Assembly (NCBI RefSeq): GCF_900119085.1
Contig: NZ_FPIQ01000009.1
Span: 42,600 to 98,627 of the forward strand
Length of the DNA: 56,028 bases
Source: Nitrosovibrio sp. Nv17
Lineage (GTDB): Bacteria; Pseudomonadota; Gammaproteobacteria; Burkholderiales; Nitrosomonadaceae
Reading direction: 5' to 3'
Shown here: positions 433 to 36,610 of the stretch, piece after piece
Position numbering within the stretch: the stretch's first letter is position 1
Layout of the letters: each line of letters starts with the position of its first letter
Made by a program: the position numbers and the translations under genes
The notes under the pieces: model-generated
Seen by the model: the letters and a program-made list of their open reading frames with translations, nothing else
Told to the model about the DNA's origin: nothing
The model's database searches: none

Positions 433-1233
433 TCAGGATCGATTCTTCCACTCGCGCAGCGCTGCGAAAACGTGCACCGCATCGGTGAGCGGCGTACCCG
501 CGTAGGCACTGGCGCTGCGGATGACCTCCGGCTGGTCGCAGCGCAGGAACGGATTGGTGGCCCGCTCCAGCGCGAGGGTGGAAGGCAGGGTGGGAAGCTC
601 CGCCCGGCGCTGCGCCTGCGCCACTGCCTCGCGTTCGATCAGGGCCAGGTTGCCGGGCTCCACCGTTCGGGCGAAACGGATGTTGGCCAGGGTATACTCG
701 TGGCCGCAATAGACGCCGGTCTCGTCCGGCAGGTCCGCCAGTTTTTGCAGGGAGGCGGCCATCTGTCCGGCAGTGCCCTCGAATACCCGCCCGCAGCCGC
801 AGGCGAACAGCGTATCGCCGCTGAACAGCCAGCCCGCGCCATGATAGGCGACATGTCCCAGGGTGTGGCCCGGGATGTCGAGCACCCGCAGGCGCAGGGA
901 AAGCTCCGGGACGTGGACTTCGCCGATCGCATCGCCGTCGTCCCGGCAGCCGTCTTCCGCCATCTCCCGGACAGGGTGCGTGACGCCGGGCACGACTTCG
1001 CGTGCGGGGCCGTACACCGGCACCGGGCCGGCCTGCAGCAGCGCGGGGATGCCGCCGGCGTGGTCGTGATGGCGGTGGGTGACGAGGATGGCGGCCAGAT
1101 CGAGCCGCTCCCGCCGCAGGTAGCCGAGCAGGGGCGCCGCGTCGCCGGGATCCACCGCCACTGCATGGCGGCGGTCGCGGATAATCCAGATATAATTGTC
1201 CCTCAGCGCGGGAACGGCGGCGATGTGCGGCAT
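433..1233 (-). CDS. gloB: Hydroxyacylglutathione hydrolase (glyoxalase II)
   Basis: This enzyme hydrolyses S-D-lactoylglutathione to D-lactate and glutathione, the second step of methylglyoxal detoxification, in the cytosol. The 266-residue product is the normal family length. The metallo-beta-lactamase motif THRHHDH gives metal ligands His53, His55, Asp57 and His58; later ligands sit in HTLGH, FSGDTLF and CGHEYT. The C-terminal third matches the HAGH substrate-binding domain. It is divergent from the methyltransferase gene, and gloB-methyltransferase-rnhA-dnaQ is a recurrent order in betaproteobacteria. The long antisense frames over it are GC-driven shadows. Confidence 0.95.
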   Translation of the reverse strand: MPHIAAVPALRDNYIWIIRDRRHAVAVDPGDAAPLLGYLRRERLDLAAILVTHRHHDHAGGIPALLQAGPVPVYGPAREVVPGVTHPVREMAEDGCRDDGDAIGEVHVPELSLRLRVLDIPGHTLGHVAYHGAGWLFSGDTLFACGCGRVFEGTAGQMAASLQKLADLPDETGVYCGHEYTLANIRFARTVEPGNLALIEREAVAQAQRRAELPTLPSTLALERATNPFLRCDQPEVIRSASAYAGTPLTDAVHVFAALREWKNRS

Positions 1234-1333
1234 GTCGGAAAAAAGTCGCGGGTCGGCGCGGGTTGACAGATCGCAGTGTAGCAGGTCTCATAGGCACCAT
1301 TCACGAACGGACGTTTCTCTGACTTCATCCCTC

Positions 1334-2206
1334 ATGGCAACACGAAACGCGCTGGAATGGTTCGATACCTGTCTGGGGCAGTACCTGCTGGAGCGGGAGC
1401 GCGGCCATTTCGACCAGGTGGTCGCGGACGTGTTCGGCTACAATGCGATGCAGATAGGCTTCCCGCAGTACGATTTCCTGCGTTCCAACCGCATGCCGCT
1501 GCAGTTCTGCGCCGCCCTCGAGGAAGGCGCAGCCCTGCGGGCGGCACCCGAATTCCTGCCGATCGAGACGAACAGCCTGGATCTGGTGCTGCTGCCGCAC
1601 GTGCTCGAATTCAGCGCCAACCCTCACCAGATCCTGCGGGAGGTGCAGCGCGTGCTGATGCCGGAGGGACATGTCATCGTCTGCGGCTTCAATCCCCGCA
1701 GCCTCTGGGGGATGCGCAGGATCCTCGGGTCGGTGGGCGCGCGCCTTCCCTGGCGCGGCAACCTGGTGTCCCCTCATCGATCCGGGCGTCCCTCGGCCGG
1801 CGAGGGATTCCCCTGGCATGGCCGTTTCATCGCACTGCCGCGGCTCAAGGACTGGCTGACGTTGCTGGATTTCGAGATCACCGCCGATCGCCTGTGCTGC
1901 TACGCGCCGCCCTTCAGCCAGGAGAAGTGGCTGCGGCGGGCCGGGTTCATGGAAGCGGCGGGTGAGCGCTGGTGGCCGTTTTCCGGGGGCATCTACTTCC
2001 TCACGGCCGTCAAGCGCGTGCATGGCATGCGCGTCATCAAGCCCGAGTGGAAGGAAGTGAGGGCGGCGCGGCGGGGGATGGCGCCGATCGCGCAGAAGCT
2101 CGGCGGCGGCGCGCCCGAGGATGGGCCGCGCCTGGCCGCGCGCGCCGGCATCGCGCCGACCGAAGCGCAGGCGCGCGCTACGCGCGGGCGGAGGATGCGG
2201 GCGTGA
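1334..2206 (+). CDS. Class I SAM-dependent methyltransferase
   Basis: A predicted cytosolic methyltransferase of 290 residues whose substrate cannot be told from sequence. The Rossmann-type methyltransferase region is partly recognisable: a segment around [10 protein letters not shown] followed by the post-motif helix ([21 protein letters not shown]) is typical of the Methyltransf_11 family. I prefer the ATG that starts [11 protein letters not shown] over the longer upstream frame, because the upstream part overlaps the divergent gloB start region and lacks protein character. Its stop overlaps the GTG start of rnhA (GTGA), which implies translational coupling. The basic C-terminal tail is low complexity. 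Confidence 0.85.
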
Positions 2207-2649
2207 AGGACGAAGTGGTGGAAATCTTCACGGACGGCGCCTGCAAGGGCAATCCGGGCGCGGGAGGCTGGGGCGCGCTGCTGCGCTGCAATGGCCATCA
2301 GCGGGAATTGTTCGGCGGCGAGGCCACGACTACCAACAACCGCATGGAGCTGCTGGCAGTCATCCGCGCGCTGGAAGCGCTGAAGCAGCCCTGCGCGGTG
2401 CGGCTGCACACCGATTCCCAGTACGTGCAGAAGGGCATCAGCGAATGGATCCACGCCTGGAAACGGCGCGACTGGCGCACCGCCGACAGGAAGCCGGTGA
2501 AGAACGACGATCTGTGGCGGCAGCTCGACGCGCTGGCGCAGCAGCACGAGATCAGCTGGCTGTGGGTGCGGGGGCACGCCGGCCACGCCGGCAACGAGCA
2601 CGCGGACCGGCTTGCCAACCGCGGGGTGGATTCGATCCTGGGCAGATAG
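2203..2649 (+). CDS. rnhA: Ribonuclease HI
   Basis: Degrades the RNA strand of RNA-DNA hybrids and helps remove R-loops and primers. The 148-residue protein carries the four catalytic acidic residues Asp11, Glu49, Asp71 and Asp135, one residue offset from the E. coli enzyme, together with the [11 protein letters not shown] opening and the [14 protein letters not shown] stretch. The GTG start overlaps the TGA of the preceding methyltransferase gene; the in-frame sequence further upstream belongs to another frame of that gene. It is followed 48 bp later by dnaQ, the usual partner. Confidence 0.97.
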
Positions 2650-2697
2650 GCCGAACACCGGCCTCCAGGCCCCCGCATACCGGAAGGAATCCAGGCC

Positions 2698-3399
2698 ATG
2701 CGCCAGATCTTCATCGATACCGAAACCACCGGCCTGGAGCCCAGGCAGGGCCACCGCATCATCGAGTTCGCGGCGGTGGAGATGCTGGGCCGCCGGCTGA
2801 CGGGAAACCGGTTCCATCGCTACCTCAATCCCGAGCGGGAGATCGACGAGGGCGCCCTGCAGGTGCACGGCCTGAATCTCGAGTTCCTCGCGGACAAGCC
2901 CAGGTTCCAGGATGTGGCTGCGGACCTGCTGGGCTTCATCGAGGGGGCGGAGCTGATCATGCACAACGCCGGTTTCGACGTCGCCTTTCTCGACCACGAG
3001 CTGGAGCGGGCGGAGCTGAAGCCGCTGGAGAATTACTGCCACGCGATCACCGATACCCTGAAGATGGCGAAGGAACTGCATCCCGGCAAGCGCAACAGCC
3101 TGGACGTGCTGTGCGAGCGCTACGAGGTCGACAACTCCCGCCGCACCCTCCATGGCGCGCTGCTGGATGCGGAACTCCTGGCGGAGGTCTACCTCGCCAT
3201 GACGCGCGGACAGGACAGCCTGCTGATGGAGCTGGAGGCTCCCTCCGCGTTCGAGATGATGGCCGATCTGCGCACGCTGCCGCTGGCGGTGCTGCCGGCC
3301 AGTGCCGAGGAGCAGGCGGCCCATGCGCAGCAGCTGGAGATGATCGAGCGCGAAAGCAGGGGCAGGTGCCTGTGGAGGCAGCTGGAGGCTGCGCCATGA
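2698..3399 (+). CDS. dnaQ: DNA polymerase III epsilon subunit (3'-5' proofreading exonuclease)
   Basis: Proofreading subunit of the replicative polymerase core. The exonuclease motifs are all present: ExoI IDTETTG with Asp7 and Glu9, ExoII around IMHNAGFDVAF, and ExoIII with HGALLDAELLAEVY. At 233 residues it has the full exonuclease domain plus the C-terminal tail that binds the alpha subunit. Its TGA overlaps the ATG of the following VOC-family gene (ATGA). Confidence 0.96.
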   Translation: MRQIFIDTETTGLEPRQGHRIIEFAAVEMLGRRLTGNRFHRYLNPEREIDEGALQVHGLNLEFLADKPRFQDVAADLLGFIEGAELIMHNAGFDVAFLDHELERAELKPLENYCHAITDTLKMAKELHPGKRNSLDVLCERYEVDNSRRTLHGALLDAELLAEVYLAMTRGQDSLLMELEAPSAFEMMADLRTLPLAVLPASAEEQAAHAQQLEMIERESRGRCLWRQLEAAP

Positions 3400-12795: not shown

Positions 12796-13773
12796 TCAGG
12801 GAGCCTTCCCGCCTCCGGCGCCCTGCCGCGACGGGCGGGGCCTCCCTGCGATGGAATGGCGTGACAGGCCGCCCAGGTAGCGGGGCGCCTGCTGCAGGTA
12901 TTCCAGGAACGCCTGCGCGATGAGGGACAGCTGCTTGCCCGAGGGGTAGGCGTAGTACCAGAGGCGCTCGATGGGAAAGCCCTGCACGTCGAGCGGGATC
13001 AGCTGGCCCCTGGGCGCCTCCGTATCCAGCGCCAGGGCGTGGCGCGACAGCACCGAAATCCCCAGCCCTCCGATGATCGCCTGCTTGATCGCCTCGTTGC
13101 TGCCCAGCTCCATCCGCACCTTCAGCTTCAGGTCGTGCCGGGAGAAGAAGCGCTCCGTCGCCCTGCGCGTGCCGGAGCCGGCCTCGCGCAGGATGAAGGG
13201 CTCTTCGCCGATACGCTCGATCGGAATGTCCCGGACATGGGCGAGCGGGTGCCTGGCGGAGGCGAGCACGACGAGCGGGTTGTCCAGGAACGCCTCGGCC
13301 ACCGCATCCACCTCGTCCGGCAACTGGCCCAGGACGTAGAGGTCGTCCTGGTTGCTCATCAGGCGCTCCAGCACGCGCTCGTGATTCGTCACCTTGAGCG
13401 CGACCTCTATCCCGGGGTACTTCTGGCAGAACATGCCCAGCAGGCGCGAGGCGAAGTACTTCGCCGTGGTGACGACGGCGAGCCGGAGCTTGCCGGCCTT
13501 CAGCCCCTTCATGTCCGAGGCGATCATCGCGAAGCGGTCGAGATGTTCGAACACGGCCAGGCAGGTGCGGTGCAGTTCGTGTCCCGCATCCGTCAGGTAA
13601 ATCTTCTTGCCGATCTGCTCGAACAGGGGCAGGCCGACATCCTCCGCCAGCTTCTTGACCTGCATCGAGGCCGTCGGCTGGGTCAGGAACAATTCCTCGG
13701 AAGCGCGGGTGAAGCTTTTCAGGCGGGCGACCGCCTCGAAGACTTGTAGCTGGCGCAGCGTGCTATGGCGCAT
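12796..13773 (-). CDS. cbbR: LysR-type regulator of the RuBisCO operon (CbbR)
   Basis: 325-residue LysR-family regulator: N-terminal winged helix (residues 1-60, LKSFTRASEELFLTQPTASMQVKKLAEDVGLPLFEQ) and the two-lobed effector domain. It is divergent from cbbL with a 152-bp shared control region, the standard CbbR arrangement, and its sequence has the CbbR-like FILREAGSGTRRATERFF segment. CbbR activates Calvin-cycle genes in response to metabolites such as RuBP, PEP or NADPH. The low-complexity tail after residue ~305 is longer than usual. Confidence 0.93.
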   Translation of the reverse strand: MRHSTLRQLQVFEAVARLKSFTRASEELFLTQPTASMQVKKLAEDVGLPLFEQIGKKIYLTDAGHELHRTCLAVFEHLDRFAMIASDMKGLKAGKLRLAVVTTAKYFASRLLGMFCQKYPGIEVALKVTNHERVLERLMSNQDDLYVLGQLPDEVDAVAEAFLDNPLVVLASARHPLAHVRDIPIERIGEEPFILREAGSGTRRATERFFSRHDLKLKVRMELGSNEAIKQAIIGGLGISVLSRHALALDTEAPRGQLIPLDVQGFPIERLWYYAYPSGKQLSLIAQAFLEYLQQAPRYLGGLSRHSIAGRPRPSRQGAGGGKAP

Positions 13774-13871: not shown

Positions 13872-15401
<1,530 letters not shown>

Positions 15402-15428: not shown

Positions 15429-15863
15429 ATGATGACCAATTCAGGCAACCGGCTCACGCAGGGCCAGTTCTCCTTCCTGCCTCCGCTGACGGACAAGCAG
15501 ATTTCGTCGCAGATCAAGTACGCGCTGAAGAACGGCTGGGCGATCGGGATCGAATACACCGACGATCCCCATCCGCGCAACACCTTCTGGGAGATGTTCG
15601 GCAACCCGATGTTCGACCTGAAGGATCCCGCAGGGATACTGATGGAGATCAACAGCTGCCGCAAGACCTTCCCGAACCACTACATCCGCGTCACGGCCTT
15701 CAATGCCACGCGCGGGGTGGAAAGCCCGACCATGTCCTACATCGTGAACAGGCCCAAGAACGAACCGGGCTTCCATCTGGTGCGGGAGGAAAAATCGGGC
15801 AGGAGCGTCGGCTACGCAATCCATTCCTATGCGACCGACAAACCCGAGGGAGACCGGTACTGA
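15429..15863 (+). CDS. cbbS: RuBisCO small subunit, red type
   Basis: 144-residue small subunit that caps the L8 core. It has the small-subunit core (LPPLTDKQISSQIKYALKNGWAIGIEY ... HPRNTFWEMFGNPMFDL) and the C-terminal extension after about residue 115 that forms beta-hairpins in the central channel of red-type enzymes and replaces the long loop of green-type subunits. It begins with ATGATG, so either Met may start. It lies 27 bp after cbbL and is surely co-transcribed with it. Confidence 0.97.
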   Translation: MMTNSGNRLTQGQFSFLPPLTDKQISSQIKYALKNGWAIGIEYTDDPHPRNTFWEMFGNPMFDLKDPAGILMEINSCRKTFPNHYIRVTAFNATRGVESPTMSYIVNRPKNEPGFHLVREEKSGRSVGYAIHSYATDKPEGDRY

Positions 15864-16089: not shown

Positions 16090-17037
16090 ATGTCCAAGCA
16101 ATCCAAGAATCCAAAGGCCGCTGAAACCGTGTCGATCGACCTGGATGCCGAGTTTCGCGACTCCAACATCCGGGAGGTGCTGGAAAAACTCGACAAGGAG
16201 CTCATAGGGCTGAAGCCGGTCAAGACCCGCATCCATGAAATCGCGGCGCTGCTGCTGGTCGACCGCGTGCGCAAGCAACTGGAGCTGACCGCGGGGGCGC
16301 CGAGCCTGCACATGTGTTTCACCGGGAACCCTGGGACCGGCAAGACCACGGTGGCCTCCCGCATGTCCGAGATCCTGCACCGCCTGGGCTACGTGCGCGA
16401 GGGGCACCTCGTGTCAGTGACCCGCGACGACCTGGTCGGCCAGTATATCGGCCACACCGCGCCGAAGACCAAGGAAGTGATCAAGAAGGCGATGGGGGGT
16501 GTGCTGTTCATCGATGAAGCGTATTATCTTTATAAACCGGAGAACGAACGCGACTATGGCGCCGAATCCATCGAGATCCTGCTGCAGACGATGGAGAACA
16601 ACCGCGACGACCTGGTCGTCATCCTGGCGGGCTACAAGGACAGAATGGACAAATTCTTCCAGAGCAACCCCGGCATGCGCTCGCGCATCGCGCACCACGT
16701 GGACTTCCCGGATTACGGGGCGGACGAACTGGTGGCGATCGCCAGGCTGATGCTGGCGGGCCAGAACTACCGCTTCAGTCCCGAAGGGGAGGCCGCGTTC
16801 GGCGAGTACATCCGCCTGCGCATGAAGCTGGAATACTTTGCGAATGCCCGCTCGGTGCGCAACGCGCTGGACCGTGCCAGGCTGCGCCAGGCGAACCGCC
16901 TGTTCACCGGCGCGAAGAAGGCATTGACCAGCACCGACCTGATGACGATCGAGGCGGAAGACATCAGGGCCAGCCGCGTATTCCTGGAAGGCGAGCCCGA
17001 CGAGGTCCCGGCGGGCGATGCGCAACAGGGGCCGTGA
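16090..17037 (+). CDS. cbbX: Red-type RuBisCO activase CbbX (AAA+ ATPase)
   Basis: Hexameric AAA+ ATPase that removes inhibitory sugar phosphates from red-type RuBisCO by transiently pulling the large-subunit C-terminus into its pore. In this 315-residue protein the Walker A motif is GNPGTGKT (79-86), Walker B is [10 protein letters not shown] with Asp142-Glu143, and the pore loop is YIGHTAPKT starting at Tyr119. Sensor and arginine residues follow in [16 protein letters not shown]. RuBP allosterically activates known homologues. It lies 226 bp after cbbS, behind two hairpins. Confidence 0.96.
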
Positions 17038-17999: not shown

Positions 18000-19337
18000 T
18001 CACGCCGCGGCGCCGCGGGCAGCCTCCGATCGCAACCGCCGGGCGTACACCATGCCCCAGCCGAGCCCCAGCAGGGCTGCCGCCAGCGAGCCCATCAGAA
18101 CGCCGAGCTTGGCCGCGCCCAGCAGGTTCGCGTCGTCAAAGGCGAGCATGGCGATGAAGATGGACATCGTGAAGCCGATGCCCGCGAGCAGGCCGACCAA
18201 TACCATCCCGCTCCATGACACGCCGGGTGGCAGCCGGCACCAGCCCATCCGCACCACGAGCCAGCTTGCGCCGATCACCCCCAACGGCTTGCCGGCGACC
18301 AAGGCGAGCGCGACACCGGCCGTGGCCCATCCGGCTCCGCCGGCGGACGGATCGATGCCGCCTAGGCTGACGCCGGCATTGGCCAGTGCGAACAGGGGCA
18401 TGACGCCGCAGGCAACCCAGGGACGCAGCGCCCGCTGCACGCGCACCACCGGCGGCAGCGATTCCCACCGGGTGGCGTCCTGTGCCGTGCCGGCACCGTG
18501 CCCGGGCAGTTCATGGGCGATGCGCGCCATCATCTCCAGCCGTCCCTCACGCATGCGCAACGGTCGCACCGGCGTCATGAACCCGAGCACGACGCCGGCG
18601 AGGGCGGGATGGGCGCCGGTCATCAGCAGGCCGCCCCACAGGATCGTGCCGGGCGCCACGTAGGCCCAGGCCGAGCCGCTGCCCATCCGCTGCAGGCCCA
18701 GCACCATCAGGATGCCGGCGCCCGCGACCGCGAATCCGCCGGGATCGAGCCCGCCGGAATAGCAGCATGCGATGATCAGCACGGCGATGATGTCGTCGAT
18801 GACCACGAGCGCCAGCAGCAGGACGCGCACGGTGCCGGGGATAGCCCGGCCCAGCAGCGCCAGCACGCCCACGGCGAATGCGATGTCGGTGGCGGTGGGC
18901 ACCGCCCAGCCGTATTGCCGCGCCGGATCGGGGTTTATGCCCAGGTAGATCAGGGCGGGGACGACCACGCCTCCCATGGCGGCCGCCACGGGAAGCGCCG
19001 CCTGCCGCGGATGGGCCAGCGCCCCTTCGTGGATCTCGCGCCGGACTTCCATGCCGACGACCAGGAAGAACACCGTCATCAGGGCATCGTTGATCCAGAA
19101 GTGCAGGGGCTGCGAGAAGAGGATGCCGCCCGGCCCGATCGAAAACGGCGTATGCCAGAGCGCGTGGTAACCATAGGCCAGGGGGGAGTTGGCCCAGATC
19201 AGCGCGATCGCCGCGGCGACCAGCAGCATGACGCCGCTGACAGCCTCCCTATGGAGCAGGCGTTCGAGCCTGGCGAAGGCGCGCTCGTCCAAACGCCGGG
19301 CGGAAGGCGGATCCTGCTGTGGCGGATGTCGATTCAC
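18000..19337 (-). CDS. nhaA: Na+/H+ antiporter NhaA
   Basis: Inner-membrane antiporter that expels Na+ in exchange for protons, controlling pH and sodium. The 445-residue protein has about a dozen membrane segments, the family opening [27 protein letters not shown], the [17 protein letters not shown] signature, and the paired aspartates in [12 protein letters not shown] that bind the ion. It is longer than E. coli NhaA because of N- and C-terminal polar extensions. Divergent from the TIR-like gene. Confidence 0.95.
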
Positions 19338-19573
19338 GGTCGAGGCAACTCCGCGCGGCGGCCCGACCGGCGCATGAACCTGTCTCGCCGCGACGCGCGG
19401 CCGACACCCGCGCCCATTCTACCTGCCGGCAGCAGGGAATGCGAGATGGAGTTGACCGCATTTCGTGAAACCGTCATGATCCGGTTTCGCGGAAATATGA
19501 CGTTTCCTCGAAATTATGCGGCCGCGGCGCATCGTCGCTCCGATAATGAGGCTGCTTCCCTGCGGAGATCCCC

Positions 19574-31111: not shown

Positions 31112-31381
31112 GACGGTCTTCCAGTAGGGCCGGCCGGCAGGTCCGGCCGGGCAAACCGCTCATTCTATACGGTTCCGTGCCGGACCTGAACCCTTGCAAG
31201 GCGTCCGCCGCGGTTTCCCCAGGGGCGGGCCCGCACCCTGTACCTTAGTCCAATGCACTTCAGTCCAATGTTCAGGGGATTCCGCTGCCCGTAAGATTCG
31301 GCTGCGTGGGAATGCCGTTCAGGAGTTTCTCGAGTGCGGCGTCCGGATCATCACATCAACCAGACAGGGAAAGGACTCGAC

Positions 31382-32095
31382 ATGAACAAGGCAATCCGTT
31401 TCTACACGACGATGGGGGCGCTGGCGCTGGGTGCGGGCATGGCCCCGGCCGGTTCCATGGCTGCCGTGCTCAACGCCTCGGTGGGAGGCGTGCCCGTGGG
31501 AGCGAACATCTACGAGAGCTTCGATACGCTCTCCAGCCTCGGCGGCGCCACCGGCAACGGCGTCACCGTGATATTCGGCGGCACGGGCGCCGGCGTGGCG
31601 ACGCTGCCCAACGTCGACGGCCAGTACGCCGCACCCTACCTTTCCGGCGGCAACGGCGCCCTGTTCGGCAACTTCCAGGCCGACGGCCAGGACGCCACCC
31701 CCTACCTGAGCACCGGCATCGGCAGCGTCACGCTGCAGCTGGACGAGTACCACCAGTACTTCGGCCTGCTGTGGGGCTCGGTCGACAGCTACAACACGCT
31801 GTCCTTCTACGACGGCGACACCCTCCTGTTCGATTTCACCGGCCTGGACGTCAACGCCCTCGCCGACGGCAGCCAGGAAGCAGGCGGCACCTACTATGTG
31901 AACATCAACTCCGACCTCCAGTTCAACAAGGTGGTCGCGTCGAGTTCGTCGTACTCATTCGAGTTCGACAACGTGGCGCTGGCCTACACCCCGGTCGAGC
32001 TGCCTCAGACCGGCGTGCCCGAACCGGGCACGCTGGCGCTGCTGGGACTGGGCGCATTCGCCGGCATCGCCGCGCGCCGCCGCCGGGCGGGATAG
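31382..32095 (+). CDS. PEP-CTERM sorted surface protein
   Basis: A 237-residue secreted protein with a signal peptide at the start and a C-terminal PEP-CTERM sorting signal: VPEPGTLALLGLGAFAGIAARRRR. Proteins with this signal are processed by exosortase (EpsH) and linked to exopolysaccharide. The mature part is rich in Gly, Asp and Ser and reads like a beta-sandwich (FDTLSSLGGATGNGVTVIFGGTG). No catalytic motif. Start chosen at the ATG beginning MNKAIRFYTT. No exosortase gene is in the window. Confidence 0.88.
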   Translation: MNKAIRFYTTMGALALGAGMAPAGSMAAVLNASVGGVPVGANIYESFDTLSSLGGATGNGVTVIFGGTGAGVATLPNVDGQYAAPYLSGGNGALFGNFQADGQDATPYLSTGIGSVTLQLDEYHQYFGLLWGSVDSYNTLSFYDGDTLLFDFTGLDVNALADGSQEAGGTYYVNINSDLQFNKVVASSSSYSFEFDNVALAYTPVELPQTGVPEPGTLALLGLGAFAGIAARRRRAG

Positions 32096-34110: not shown

Positions 34111-34578
34111 GGGAGCAGGCTGGGGTGGATGATGTCCTGGCGGCCCGCCGCAGCGGGGAACCGGTCCCGCGCTTGCCGCCGCGCCGCCTTTCCGGGGCAG
34201 GCACGATGGATGGCGCGGTCGCCGGTACCGTTGCCGTCAGGTATCGGGCATAGTGTACCGGATCTCCATGGATCGCGATGGCTGCCCGTGCCGCCGTCCC
34301 GCCGCGGGCCGTGGAGAAGGGGGGATTATCCCGGAGGACTTGCGATTGACATCGGCGTGCATCCGATCTAGAGTATCAAGCTGAAGTTGCGAGAGCAGGC
34401 CTCTCTAGAAAGGCGGATCTGGCAGGTCTCAAAACGCATACGCATGGCGGTCGCGGGGGGCGGCTTTCCGGGGCCGGCTTCCAGCGCGGCGCCGGGGATC
34501 GCGAATTTCCTTCTCCGCGACACCCGCCTGTGTATGTCATTTCGTCCAGGTGTCAATCAATCAGAGTAAAGGAAAGTC
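34111..34578. other. Upstream region of the nitrosocyanin gene
   Basis: This 468-base stretch between the divergent helicase and nitrosocyanin genes holds no supported gene. It contains one good promoter candidate and, after it, about 200 bases of G/C-rich sequence before the start codon, which would be an unusually long untranslated leader with hairpin potential (GACACC ... GGTGTC near its end). Confidence 0.5.
34346..34374 (+). promoter_or_regulatory. Candidate sigma-70 promoter of the nitrosocyanin gene
   Basis: A consensus TTGACA is followed after 17 bases by TAGAGT (four of six consensus bases). The predicted transcript would carry about 200 untranslated bases. Confidence 0.6.
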
Positions 34579-34992
34579 ATGATGAAAATAAACAAGGTAG
34601 CATTTGCGGGTCTGGTTTCCGGGTTGTTGCTGGCAGGTGCCGCGCAGGCGGGGGAACAGACGTTCAAGGTGGTCGTGAACGCCTACGACACCACCATTCC
34701 CGAGCTTTCGGTGGAGGGGGTGACGGTCAAGAACATCCGTGCCTTCAACGTTCTCAACGAGCCCGAGACGCTGACGGTCAAGAAGGGGACCTCGGTGAAG
34801 ATCACGGTGGAGAACAAGTCTCCCATCAGCGAGGGCTTCTCCATCAACGAGTACGGCATCGAGGAAGTCATCAAGGCGGGCGAGACCAAGACCGTTTCGT
34901 TCGTCGCCAACAAGGCCGGCGCCTTCACCATCTGGTGCCAGCTGCATCCCAAGAACATCCACCTGCCCGGTTCCCTGAACGTCGTCGAATAA
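34579..34992 (+). CDS. ncyA: Nitrosocyanin (periplasmic red copper protein)
   Basis: Small soluble copper protein of 137 residues with a signal peptide ([15 protein letters not shown], cleavage after residue 24). The mature part matches nitrosocyanin of Nitrosomonas europaea closely: the segments [26 protein letters not shown] and [17 protein letters not shown]. The unusual mononuclear copper ligands are all present: Glu85 (SPISEGFS), Cys120, His123 and His128 (CQLHPKNIH). It may be a redox enzyme or nitric-oxide-related protein; its role is unsettled. It stands alone. Starts ATGATG; the second Met has the better spacing from AAAGGA. Symbol as in the ammonia-oxidiser literature. Confidence 0.93.
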
Positions 34993-35006
34993 GGGACATG
35001 AAACGG

Positions 35007-35033
35007 GGGCCCGCCGGAGGCTTCGGCGGGCCC
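35007..35033 (+). terminator. Hairpin after nitrosocyanin
   Basis: A perfect 10-bp stem GGGCCCGCCG / CGGCGGGCCC with a seven-base loop starts 14 bases after the stop codon. No T-run follows. It lies between two convergent genes. Confidence 0.65.
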
Positions 35034-35145
35034 GGTTCCGGCTTCTCCGAATGGAGGGGCCGGAAACCGGATGCCTGAACCCGCCTCCGGCGGGTTTTGT
35101 TCTTCCGGTGCCCGGGCGCGCCTGTGGCCGCGATCCTGCCGCCCG

Positions 35146-35640
35146 TCAGCGCCTTTCCCTCTCCTTGTTCCATTGCCAGGGCGGTACCGGCTGCGTGGAC
35201 GCCCACAACCCCTGCCCGGCAGCGCGCGCCTCCTCCTGCAGGCGCTGGAGCTCCGGGTCGTCGGCATGGCCTGCGCGCACCCATGCCATGCCCCGCCTCA
35301 CCTGCTCCCTGCTGGCGTCCAGGCCGTTGCACTGTACCGTCGCGACCGTGCGCCCGTATTGATCCTTCGTGATGGAGGACAGTTCCGCCTCGATCCAGAA
35401 GCACAGCTCGGAAAGCGATTTCTTGGAACGGGTGGTATAGGGCTGCCGGCCCTCGGGCGCATCGATCCCGGCCAGGCGTACCCTGACCATCTCGCCGTCG
35501 ATGGCAACGGTCAGCGAGTCGCCGTCGACGATCTGGATGACCTGGGCATGGATGCGCCGGTCGGCGGATTCGTGCGCCGCGGCGGACGGCGACACGGAGA
35601 TCGCGGTGGCCAGGGCTGAGATTGCGGCAATGGGAAGCAT
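35146..35640 (-). CDS. Secreted thermonuclease-family nuclease (SNase-like)
   Basis: A 164-residue protein with a signal peptide (ISALATAISVSPSAAAHES) and a staphylococcal-nuclease domain: IVDGDSLTVAIDG, VRLAGIDAPEGRQ, SELCFWIEAEL, DQYGRTVATV, then VRRGMAWV. The motifs containing the catalytic Asp and Arg are present. It should cut DNA and RNA in the periplasm or outside. I chose the ATG just before the signal peptide; the long upstream frame has no protein character. Converges on nitrosocyanin. Confidence 0.88.
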   Translation of the reverse strand: MLPIAAISALATAISVSPSAAAHESADRRIHAQVIQIVDGDSLTVAIDGEMVRVRLAGIDAPEGRQPYTTRSKKSLSELCFWIEAELSSITKDQYGRTVATVQCNGLDASREQVRRGMAWVRAGHADDPELQRLQEEARAAGQGLWASTQPVPPWQWNKERERR

Positions 35641-35884
35641 GGCGTTCGGACGATGTCTGCTGCATGTAAGGCTCGTGCGTATGCCGCCGTATCCCCGTCC
35701 GGCATGAGCCGGAAATTCCGGTTTCCCGTATGCTCCTGTTTTTGCGGCAGGTCCCGATGAGGGAGCCGGGGGACACGCACCATCCTTCCAGACCTCGCTA
35801 CCCGGCCATCCCGATTGTACAGGTTTTTTTGCGCCGCACGGTGCCGAATCGATGCGGCATGCAGCCGTGCCCGCATCCGCGGTT

Positions 35885-36610
35885 TCATGCGGGGTATGCC
35901 AGAGTCCGGTGCAGCAGGAAGGCATCGATGCCGGCGCGCCGGCAGAGCCTGGGGCCGGCGATCGGCATGAATCCCAGCAGCCTTCCCTGCGCCGCCACGT
36001 GCTGCGGCACCACTTCGCAGATGAGATCGGTGACGTCGTTCATCAGGTATCCATAGACGTAGATGAGATGGAAGAAAGCGCCCATGATCGTGCTGGTGGG
36101 CTGGCCCGGCAGGATGACGAACCTCGACAGTTCCGCCAGCTTGCGGCCCGAAAGGCGCAAGGCGTTCAGTTCGTCCGGGTAGGTCATGTCGCCGTACAGC
36201 CTCTCGGGAGAATCGAGCCGCATCGTCAGGGTGCCGACGATCCTGTCGGACAGTTCGATGTCGAACACGATGTCCGTCGATACCAGGGTATGGTCGGCGG
36301 TGTAGCCCTTCCTCTGGTAGGACGCCTTGACCAGCTCGCCCGAGCGTTCGAGCGAGTGTGTGGCGCTGATGACGTAGCCCCCGAAACGGGCGCGGATGCA
36401 GGGCGCGTGCATCGGGAGGGGTGCGCGGCCGACGCGGTTCCGCGCGAGCGGTTCCCCCCGCGGTTTCATGCGCCCGTTTTCATCGGGGTCCTCGGTGTCG
36501 GCGTCGGGGTCGTGCGAGGCACGGTTCCCGATGATGGGCTTGTGTCCTGGCGTGATCAATTTTGCTGTCGGAAGGGGTTGAGGGTTATGGTACGGGCAGA
36601 GTTGTTCCAT
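35885..36610 (-). CDS. FeeM-like N-acyltransferase (GNAT fold)
   Basis: A 241-residue protein of the GNAT/autoinducer-synthase-like FeeM group, whose known members make N-acyl amino acids from acyl-ACP. Family patterns: VISATHSLERSGELVKASYQRKGY, FDIELSDRIVGTLTMRLDSPERL, LSGRKLAELSRFVI, and the C-terminal region around EVVPQHVAAQGRLLGF. The N-terminal 60 residues are proline-rich and disordered. GGAGG precedes the ATG. Related acyltransferases often accompany exosortase/PEP-CTERM genomes, and PEP-CTERM genes are nearby. Product uncertain. Confidence 0.8.
   Translation of the reverse strand: MEQLCPYHNPQPLPTAKLITPGHKPIIGNRASHDPDADTEDPDENGRMKPRGEPLARNRVGRAPLPMHAPCIRARFGGYVISATHSLERSGELVKASYQRKGYTADHTLVSTDIVFDIELSDRIVGTLTMRLDSPERLYGDMTYPDELNALRLSGRKLAELSRFVILPGQPTSTIMGAFFHLIYVYGYLMNDVTDLICEVVPQHVAAQGRLLGFMPIAGPRLCRRAGIDAFLLHRTLAYPA

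Follow-up and report, generated by a model that had tools for sequence, protein, structure and literature searches.

A nitrosocyanin gene in a GC-rich Nitrosospira and nitrosocyanins with a Sco neighbour outside the ammonia oxidisers

The window, by which we mean the whole stretch of 56,028 nucleotides that was analysed, encodes nitrosocyanin, the red copper protein of ammonia-oxidising bacteria (AOB). The best explanation overall is that the gene is ncyA and that it belongs to a GC-rich Nitrosospira, which oxidises ammonia aerobically and has a red-type RuBisCO. We consider this explanation very probable, and its two core elements, the identity of the protein and that of the host, close to certain. 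The nitrosocyanins detected outside the AOB in the same work are a lead worth following, and they are more interesting than the window itself.

Identity of the ncyA product

The gene and its immediate surroundings contain the following features (evidence in parentheses):

34346..34374, + strand: promoter-like TTGACA-17-TAGAGT, likely the ncyA promoter, which would give a leader of about 200 bases (consensus match only)
34579..34992, + strand: ncyA, nitrosocyanin precursor of 137 amino acids (family profile, PDB match, alignment)
34831..34833, + strand: codon of the copper ligand Glu85, mature Glu60 (sequence; invariant in 57/57)
34936..34962, + strand: codons of the copper ligands Cys120, His123 and His128, C-x2-H-x4-H (sequence; invariant in 57/57)
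35077..35097, + strand: terminator-like hairpin with T-rich tail, 3' of ncyA (one found, mean of shuffles 1.0)
35146..35925, - strand: SNase-domain nuclease, convergent neighbour, with homologues in the ncyA loci of Nitrosospira Nsp2 and Nsp14 (L017, L046)
35885..36610, - strand: FeeM-like N-acyl amino acid synthase, with a homologue in the ncyA locus of Nitrosospira Nsp14 (L046)

In a profile search the ncyA product scored 249.7 bits with TIGR03096 (the NCBIfam equivalog nitroso_cyanin), whose cut-off is 142.85. In the PDB search the top match was Nitrosomonas europaea nitrosocyanin (1iby, E 4.8e-60), and residues 26-137 aligned to the entire 112-residue chain, with Glu26 corresponding to residue 1 of 1iby. 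The next best chain was the cupredoxin 4hcf (8.4e-05), followed by N2O reductases. The N-terminus is hydrophobic and ends in AAQAG, and residues 1-25 were judged by eye to be signal-peptide-like. The copper ligands of nitrosocyanin, in mature numbering, we take to be Glu60, Cys95, His98 and His103. Glu85, Cys120, His123 and His128, named as ligands in the initial annotation, occupy exactly these positions and were invariant in all 57 aligned sequences (the window protein and 56 loci from a scan of public genome contigs).

Judged from its sequence, the gene encodes a true nitrosocyanin, as the initial annotation had proposed. The weak similarity to nitrous oxide reductases, which were the runner-up families at no more than 41.5 bits, could be read as the mark of an ordinary cupredoxin wrongly called nitrosocyanin, but the equivalog score, the full-length match to 1iby and the presence of all four ligands leave this reading a negligible probability. 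The only correction concerns the extent of the gene, which had been given as 34346-34992. The open reading frame is shorter, and the earlier start is accounted for by 34346 being the first base of the promoter-like site.

Surroundings of ncyA and other features of the window

ncyA is a solitary gene, flanked on one side by a helicase gene (PF13307) and on the other by the convergent SNase and FeeM-like genes. Two promoter-like sites were found within 34111-35200 (mean of shuffles, 0.1). The terminator-like hairpin is a weak signal because its count is no better than that of the shuffles; a hairpin after ncyA would fit a single-gene transcript.

When genes within 4.5 kb of ncyA were clustered for 51 of the 53 AOB loci (L035 and L049 were omitted) and the corresponding region of the complete relative G021, no cluster apart from ncyA itself was present in more than 15 loci. 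A tblastn search (E 1e-3) with seven SCO1/SenC query proteins, one repeating another, gave no match to this family beside ncyA in any of the 53 AOB loci, whose flanks vary in length, in the G021 ncyA region or in the window. About 31 kb from ncyA, window positions 433-3399 hold, among others, metallo-hydrolase-like and DnaQ-like genes (named by eye); in 14-16 other loci the homologues of the genes in this segment are no more than about 6 kb away from ncyA.

The window also contains a RuBisCO cluster:

12796..13773, - strand: LysR-type regulator beside RuBisCO, CbbR by position
13875..15401, + strand: red-type RuBisCO large subunit (domain and PDB chain scores)
15429..15863, + strand: RuBisCO small subunit (domain match)
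16090..17037, + strand: AAA protein that fits the RuBisCO activase CbbX (domains and position; the name follows from position)

The large subunit scored 882.4 bits with 1bxn and 918 with 1bwv, which we take to be red-type enzymes (of Cupriavidus and Galdieria, respectively), versus 639.8 with 2ybv, presumably a green-type enzyme. These values agree with the red type assigned in the initial annotation. Two further features are an nhaA-I motif RNA at 19354-19409 (- strand), just upstream of a gene at 18000-19337 (- strand), and a PEP-CTERM protein gene at 31334-32095.

The host and its ammonia-oxidation genes

The host assembly comprises 2.84 Mb in 56 contigs and is rated 99.83% complete and 0.43% contaminated. 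In an rpoB tree (40 rows, single gene, quick method) the window host nests in genus g1, which holds Nitrosospira, together with G012, G015 and G021 (SH-aLRT 99), at a position that is provisional in its details. Its rpoB is 95.0% identical to that of G012, and its end branch measures 0.072 versus 0.005-0.02. The high GC content remarked on at the outset is a property of the genome: it amounts to 66.5% in the window and 62.8% in the host, sampled over 818 kb on 44 contigs (the 12 contigs left out are each below 3 kb and read as N), and the rpoB region has 60.7% versus 51.0-54.7% in 21 congeners. Third-position GC of ncyA is 84.8%, versus 46.3-64.0% in eight AOB. Because rpoB nests in the genus and the oddity lies in base composition, the host is, on phylogenetic grounds, a GC-rich Nitrosospira rather than a novel type of ammonia oxidiser. 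The undescribed lineage envisaged in the initial annotation is thus right only at about species level, with an unusual GC content. No paper on a GC-rich Nitrosospira appeared by title among the matches listed, and a narrower query returned none either. A Nitrosospira about 10 GC points above its congeners offers a case for studying shifts in base composition. Two contigs, C34 (L243) and C53 (L213), have 45% and 40% GC within this 63% GC genome; they may be islands rather than contaminants, since they carry genes that by eye are of exopolysaccharide type.

A search for amoCAB, hao and cycAB, suggested in the initial annotation, gave a divided result. Family searches of the host assembly detected neither the HAO domain (PF13447) nor cytochrome c554 (PF13435, cycA), and they showed AmoA as two pieces, both at contig ends, and the C-terminal part of AmoB at two contig ends. 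When contig ends were compared with five amo and hao regions of G021, the matches listed included a whole amoC on C40, with amoC fragments on C26 and C50. They also included fragments of amoA (C40 and C8) and of amoB (C12 and C16), those of amoB with the expected genes downstream, N-terminal hao pieces ending C8 (79% identity, 92 residues) and C26 (77%, 70 residues), and a cycB piece opening C46 (94%, 148 residues). Among these matches the amo and hao pieces shared 77-98% identity with the G021 reading frames that matched them best, and the neighbouring genes are in the same order as in this relative. Pieces at contig ends are what near-identical operon copies, expected to break an assembly, would leave. 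In G021, cycA and amoB are each present in three copies of equal score, so that collapse of repeats is the simple explanation of the broken genes; no intact copies were seen, 12 of the 56 contigs, all below 3 kb, reading as N. A COX2-like gene and an SCO1/SenC gene near the hao piece on C26 are in keeping with N. multiformis, where norSY-senC-orf1 adjoins hao, to judge by the locus tags given in the accessible part of PMC4940428. On C8 (L133:1-989) the C-terminal amoA piece is followed by a 186-aa gene with no amoB between; this gene resembles by eye one found downstream of amoB elsewhere, and the arrangement may represent a solitary copy or a misassembly.

Two readings dispute this assignment. 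The window is richer in GC than the sampled genome mean, as would be expected if a contig of a high-GC non-nitrifier with nitrosocyanin had ended up in one bin with a Nitrosospira. GC in the sampled stretches of that bin, however, ranges from 57 to 70%, with four low exceptions (39.7-50.7%), and the GC-corrected tetranucleotide correlation of the window was 0.76-0.89 with the host contigs carrying amo, hao, cycB and rpoB, but only 0.49 when Nitrosomonas loci were compared and 0.52 for a short sample, the rpoB stretch of another GC-rich member of the order. (The value of 0.80 with G021 is about as good as that with some of the host's own contigs, so the profile indicates kinship, not sameness.) The flanking genes that recur around ncyA in Nitrosospira Nsp2 and Nsp14, and the grouping of the window nitrosocyanin with AOB sequences and not with the non-AOB set, also speak against a foreign contig, which we regard as very improbable. 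We give equally little credence to the proposal that the host carries nitrosocyanin but is a non-functional ammonia oxidiser with degraded amo and hao. The fragmentary amoA, amoB and hao and the lack of PF13447 and cytochrome c554 matches could be cited in its favour, but the breaks coincide with contig ends, the pieces remain close to the G021 frames, and amoC is whole. Moreover, in two related drafts the contigs that carry the HAO domain are only 3.4 and 4.3 kb long, and amo and hao were on short unbinned contigs in some Nitrosospira MAGs, according to the portion of PMC9239080 at hand.

The ammonia-oxidiser reading prevails because the assembly contains the amo, hao and cycB pieces and rpoB is nested in the genus. 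That hao is absent, as three blank family searches might suggest, is contradicted as a proof by the pieces at contig ends. Absence of amo and hao from a complete genome, the outcome that had been named as decisive against an ammonia oxidiser, would for hao have misled here, since the gene is seen only as such pieces. The host is an example of how, even where a genome is rated near-complete, repeats broken in assembly can create the impression that hao is missing.

Distribution among ammonia oxidisers

Nitrosocyanin scored above the TIGR03096 cut-off in 25 of 61 genomes (the window host and 60 relatives), namely in the host, in 19 of the 22 others of its genus and in all five of g3. None was above the cut-off in the five g2, the four g4 or the 24 other genomes of the order, and one of 14 control genomes gave a match, below the cut-off. 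The members of the genus without it are G002 (80% complete), G018 (93% complete, AmoB also unmatched) and G011, which is rated 100% complete and has AmoB. Great Lakes Nitrosospira without nitrosocyanin are described in the part of PMC9239080 seen; the small genomes of g2 and g4 may correspond to these.

In the scan of genome contigs 118 stretches matched a pattern. Relatives are encoded by 56 of them, and 53 of these group with the ammonia oxidisers in the tree. The patterns were narrow and derived from single sequences, so the spread found outside the AOB is a lower bound. The tree sampled no gammaproteobacterial AOB, and within the AOB it leaves the position of the window protein unresolved. 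One sequence recorded as gammaproteobacterial (L053) groups with Nitrosomonas aestuarii and N. marina; neither AmoB nor an HAO-domain match was found in its genome. No nitrosocyanin was found in viral contigs (with the profile), plasmids (with the L057 protein) or phages (with the window protein).

Excerpts of PMC3772326, PMC4940428 and PMC6967387 describe ncyA as known only from, or specific to, AOB. In the available text of PMC2147054, 15% of the bacteria that use copper, and one archaeon, are credited with a 'nitrosocyanin family', and nitrosocyanin-like genes were counted in marine metagenomes in the corresponding sections of PMC4585252 and PMC9402790. The counts in these three papers look like the product of broader definitions. 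The parts of the nitrosocyanin literature consulted contain no mention of a non-AOB member under a strict model.

Nitrosocyanin outside the ammonia oxidisers

Four uncultured genomes of two other phyla encode a nitrosocyanin above the TIGR03096 cut-off. The scores were 166.3 bits (L057, HRbin19), 167.1 (L058), 157 (G103) and 145.3 (L059, from the WOR-3 genome G066), the last barely over the threshold. Carriers make up two of five genomes in the phylum of G064 and two of 147 in that of G066, and no control genome matched. A branch with support 100/99 separates the four from the 56 other sequences of the tree; the branches are long, and the root was placed by choice on the branch between non-AOB and AOB. 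The second alternative in the initial annotation, nitrosocyanin outside ammonia oxidisers, thus fails for the window and finds support in these four genomes.

Neither AmoB nor the HAO domain was found in G064, G065 or G066; the HAO result carries limited weight because the same search missed hao of the window host. In the seen part of PMC5877337 the reactors had amo only in archaeal MAGs and hao on an unbinned contig, and their link to HRbin19 rests on the bin name, since HR19 is not mentioned in that text. Contamination of these bins with AOB DNA was considered and is disfavoured: the nitrosocyanin stretches gave correlations of 0.72-0.87 with other contigs of their own bins and at most 0.37 with AOB sets, and two related bins have the same neighbours.

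Nitrosocyanin is immediately followed, on the same strand, by SCO1/SenC in each of the four genomes:

L057:6001-7145: nitrosocyanin, then SCO1/SenC
L058:6001-7150: nitrosocyanin, then SCO1/SenC
L173:10610-11565: nitrosocyanin, then SCO1/SenC
L172:5887-6869: nitrosocyanin, then SCO1/SenC

The two reading frames overlap by 4 bases in G066 and G103 and are separated by 32 (L057) and 46 bases (L058). The neighbour matched the Pfam SCO1-SenC family with 95.8 bits in G103, 79.9 in G065 (the genome of L058) and 73.7 in L057, and marginally in L059 (23.6 vs 22.8). With this arrangement recurring in three lineages, coincidence is an unlikely explanation. Sco genes over the cut-off numbered two in G064, two in G065, three in G066 and two in G103; the non-carriers G068, G069 and G070 had one, none and one, respectively. 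Since COX2-type matches over the cut-off were present in all nine genomes tested, Sco has other possible clients. In G064, the HRbin19-type genome, a Sec-type NosZ (866 bits vs 625) is encoded on the same contig as nitrosocyanin (L275:4693-6684, - strand). We infer that Sco may load nitrosocyanin, itself near the CuA domain of NosZ.

Proposed role of nitrosocyanin

The function of nitrosocyanin is a long-open question. By analogy with its family, the window protein would be exported, would fold as a cupredoxin trimer and would bind one copper through Glu85, Cys120, His123 and His128 with a coordination position left open. It is probably made in large amounts from a single-gene transcript and would act in the periplasm beside hydroxylamine oxidation. 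In the sections seen of the respective papers, ncyA was among the most responsive transcripts of N. oceani (PMC3772326), the protein was highly abundant in three AOB proteomes (PMC5960693), and it served as an example of a type 2 cupredoxin (PMC4059628). Handling of nitric oxide or of electrons leaving HAO appears to be its most likely task, a proposal that we make tentatively, at somewhat less than even chances. It is weakened by the lack of ncyA in complete nitrifiers and some AOB (PMC6967387 and PMC9239080, in the parts available), by the view in the seen text of PMC13170337 (2026) that a redox-active role is unlikely, and by the occurrence of the gene elsewhere without a detected AmoB or HAO domain.

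A wider reading, which we think possible though not quite an even bet, is that nitrosocyanin is not tied to ammonia oxidation. It would be an older copper protein of the extracytoplasmic space, close in sequence to the CuA domain of N2O reductase, that travels with its own Sco chaperone in some uncultured bacteria with heme-copper oxidases (one of them with N2O reductase) and was taken up by ammonia oxidisers without the chaperone linkage. Its chemistry would then concern copper or NO handling in respiration and not a step peculiar to AOB. If nitrosocyanin works without AMO and HAO, its function could be tested outside the slow-growing nitrifiers, and Sco would be a candidate copper chaperone.

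Comparison with known nitrosocyanins

The whole mature chain of N. europaea nitrosocyanin (PDB 1iby, 1ibz, 1ic0) matches the window protein, with the same four ligands and 83.6% identity over 116 aligned residues (first 20 residues dropped). The two differ in base composition: third-position GC of ncyA is 84.8% in the window and 46.3% in N. europaea, whose genome is far poorer in GC than that of the window host. The nitrosocyanins of Nitrosospira (G012, G021, NpAV and Nl5), which by rpoB belong to the same genus as the window host, are up to 86% identical to the window protein, whose end branch is longer (0.15 versus 0.02-0.09). The flanking genes of ncyA are common to the window and Nitrosospira only in part, namely with Nsp2 (SNase) and Nsp14 (both genes). 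The non-AOB nitrosocyanins (L057, L058, L059 of G066 and L172 of G103) have all four ligands, in G103 as judged by eye, and the three that were aligned are 50-55% identical to the window protein. In contrast to these four genomes, no SCO1/SenC gene was detected by ncyA in the window or the 53 AOB loci.
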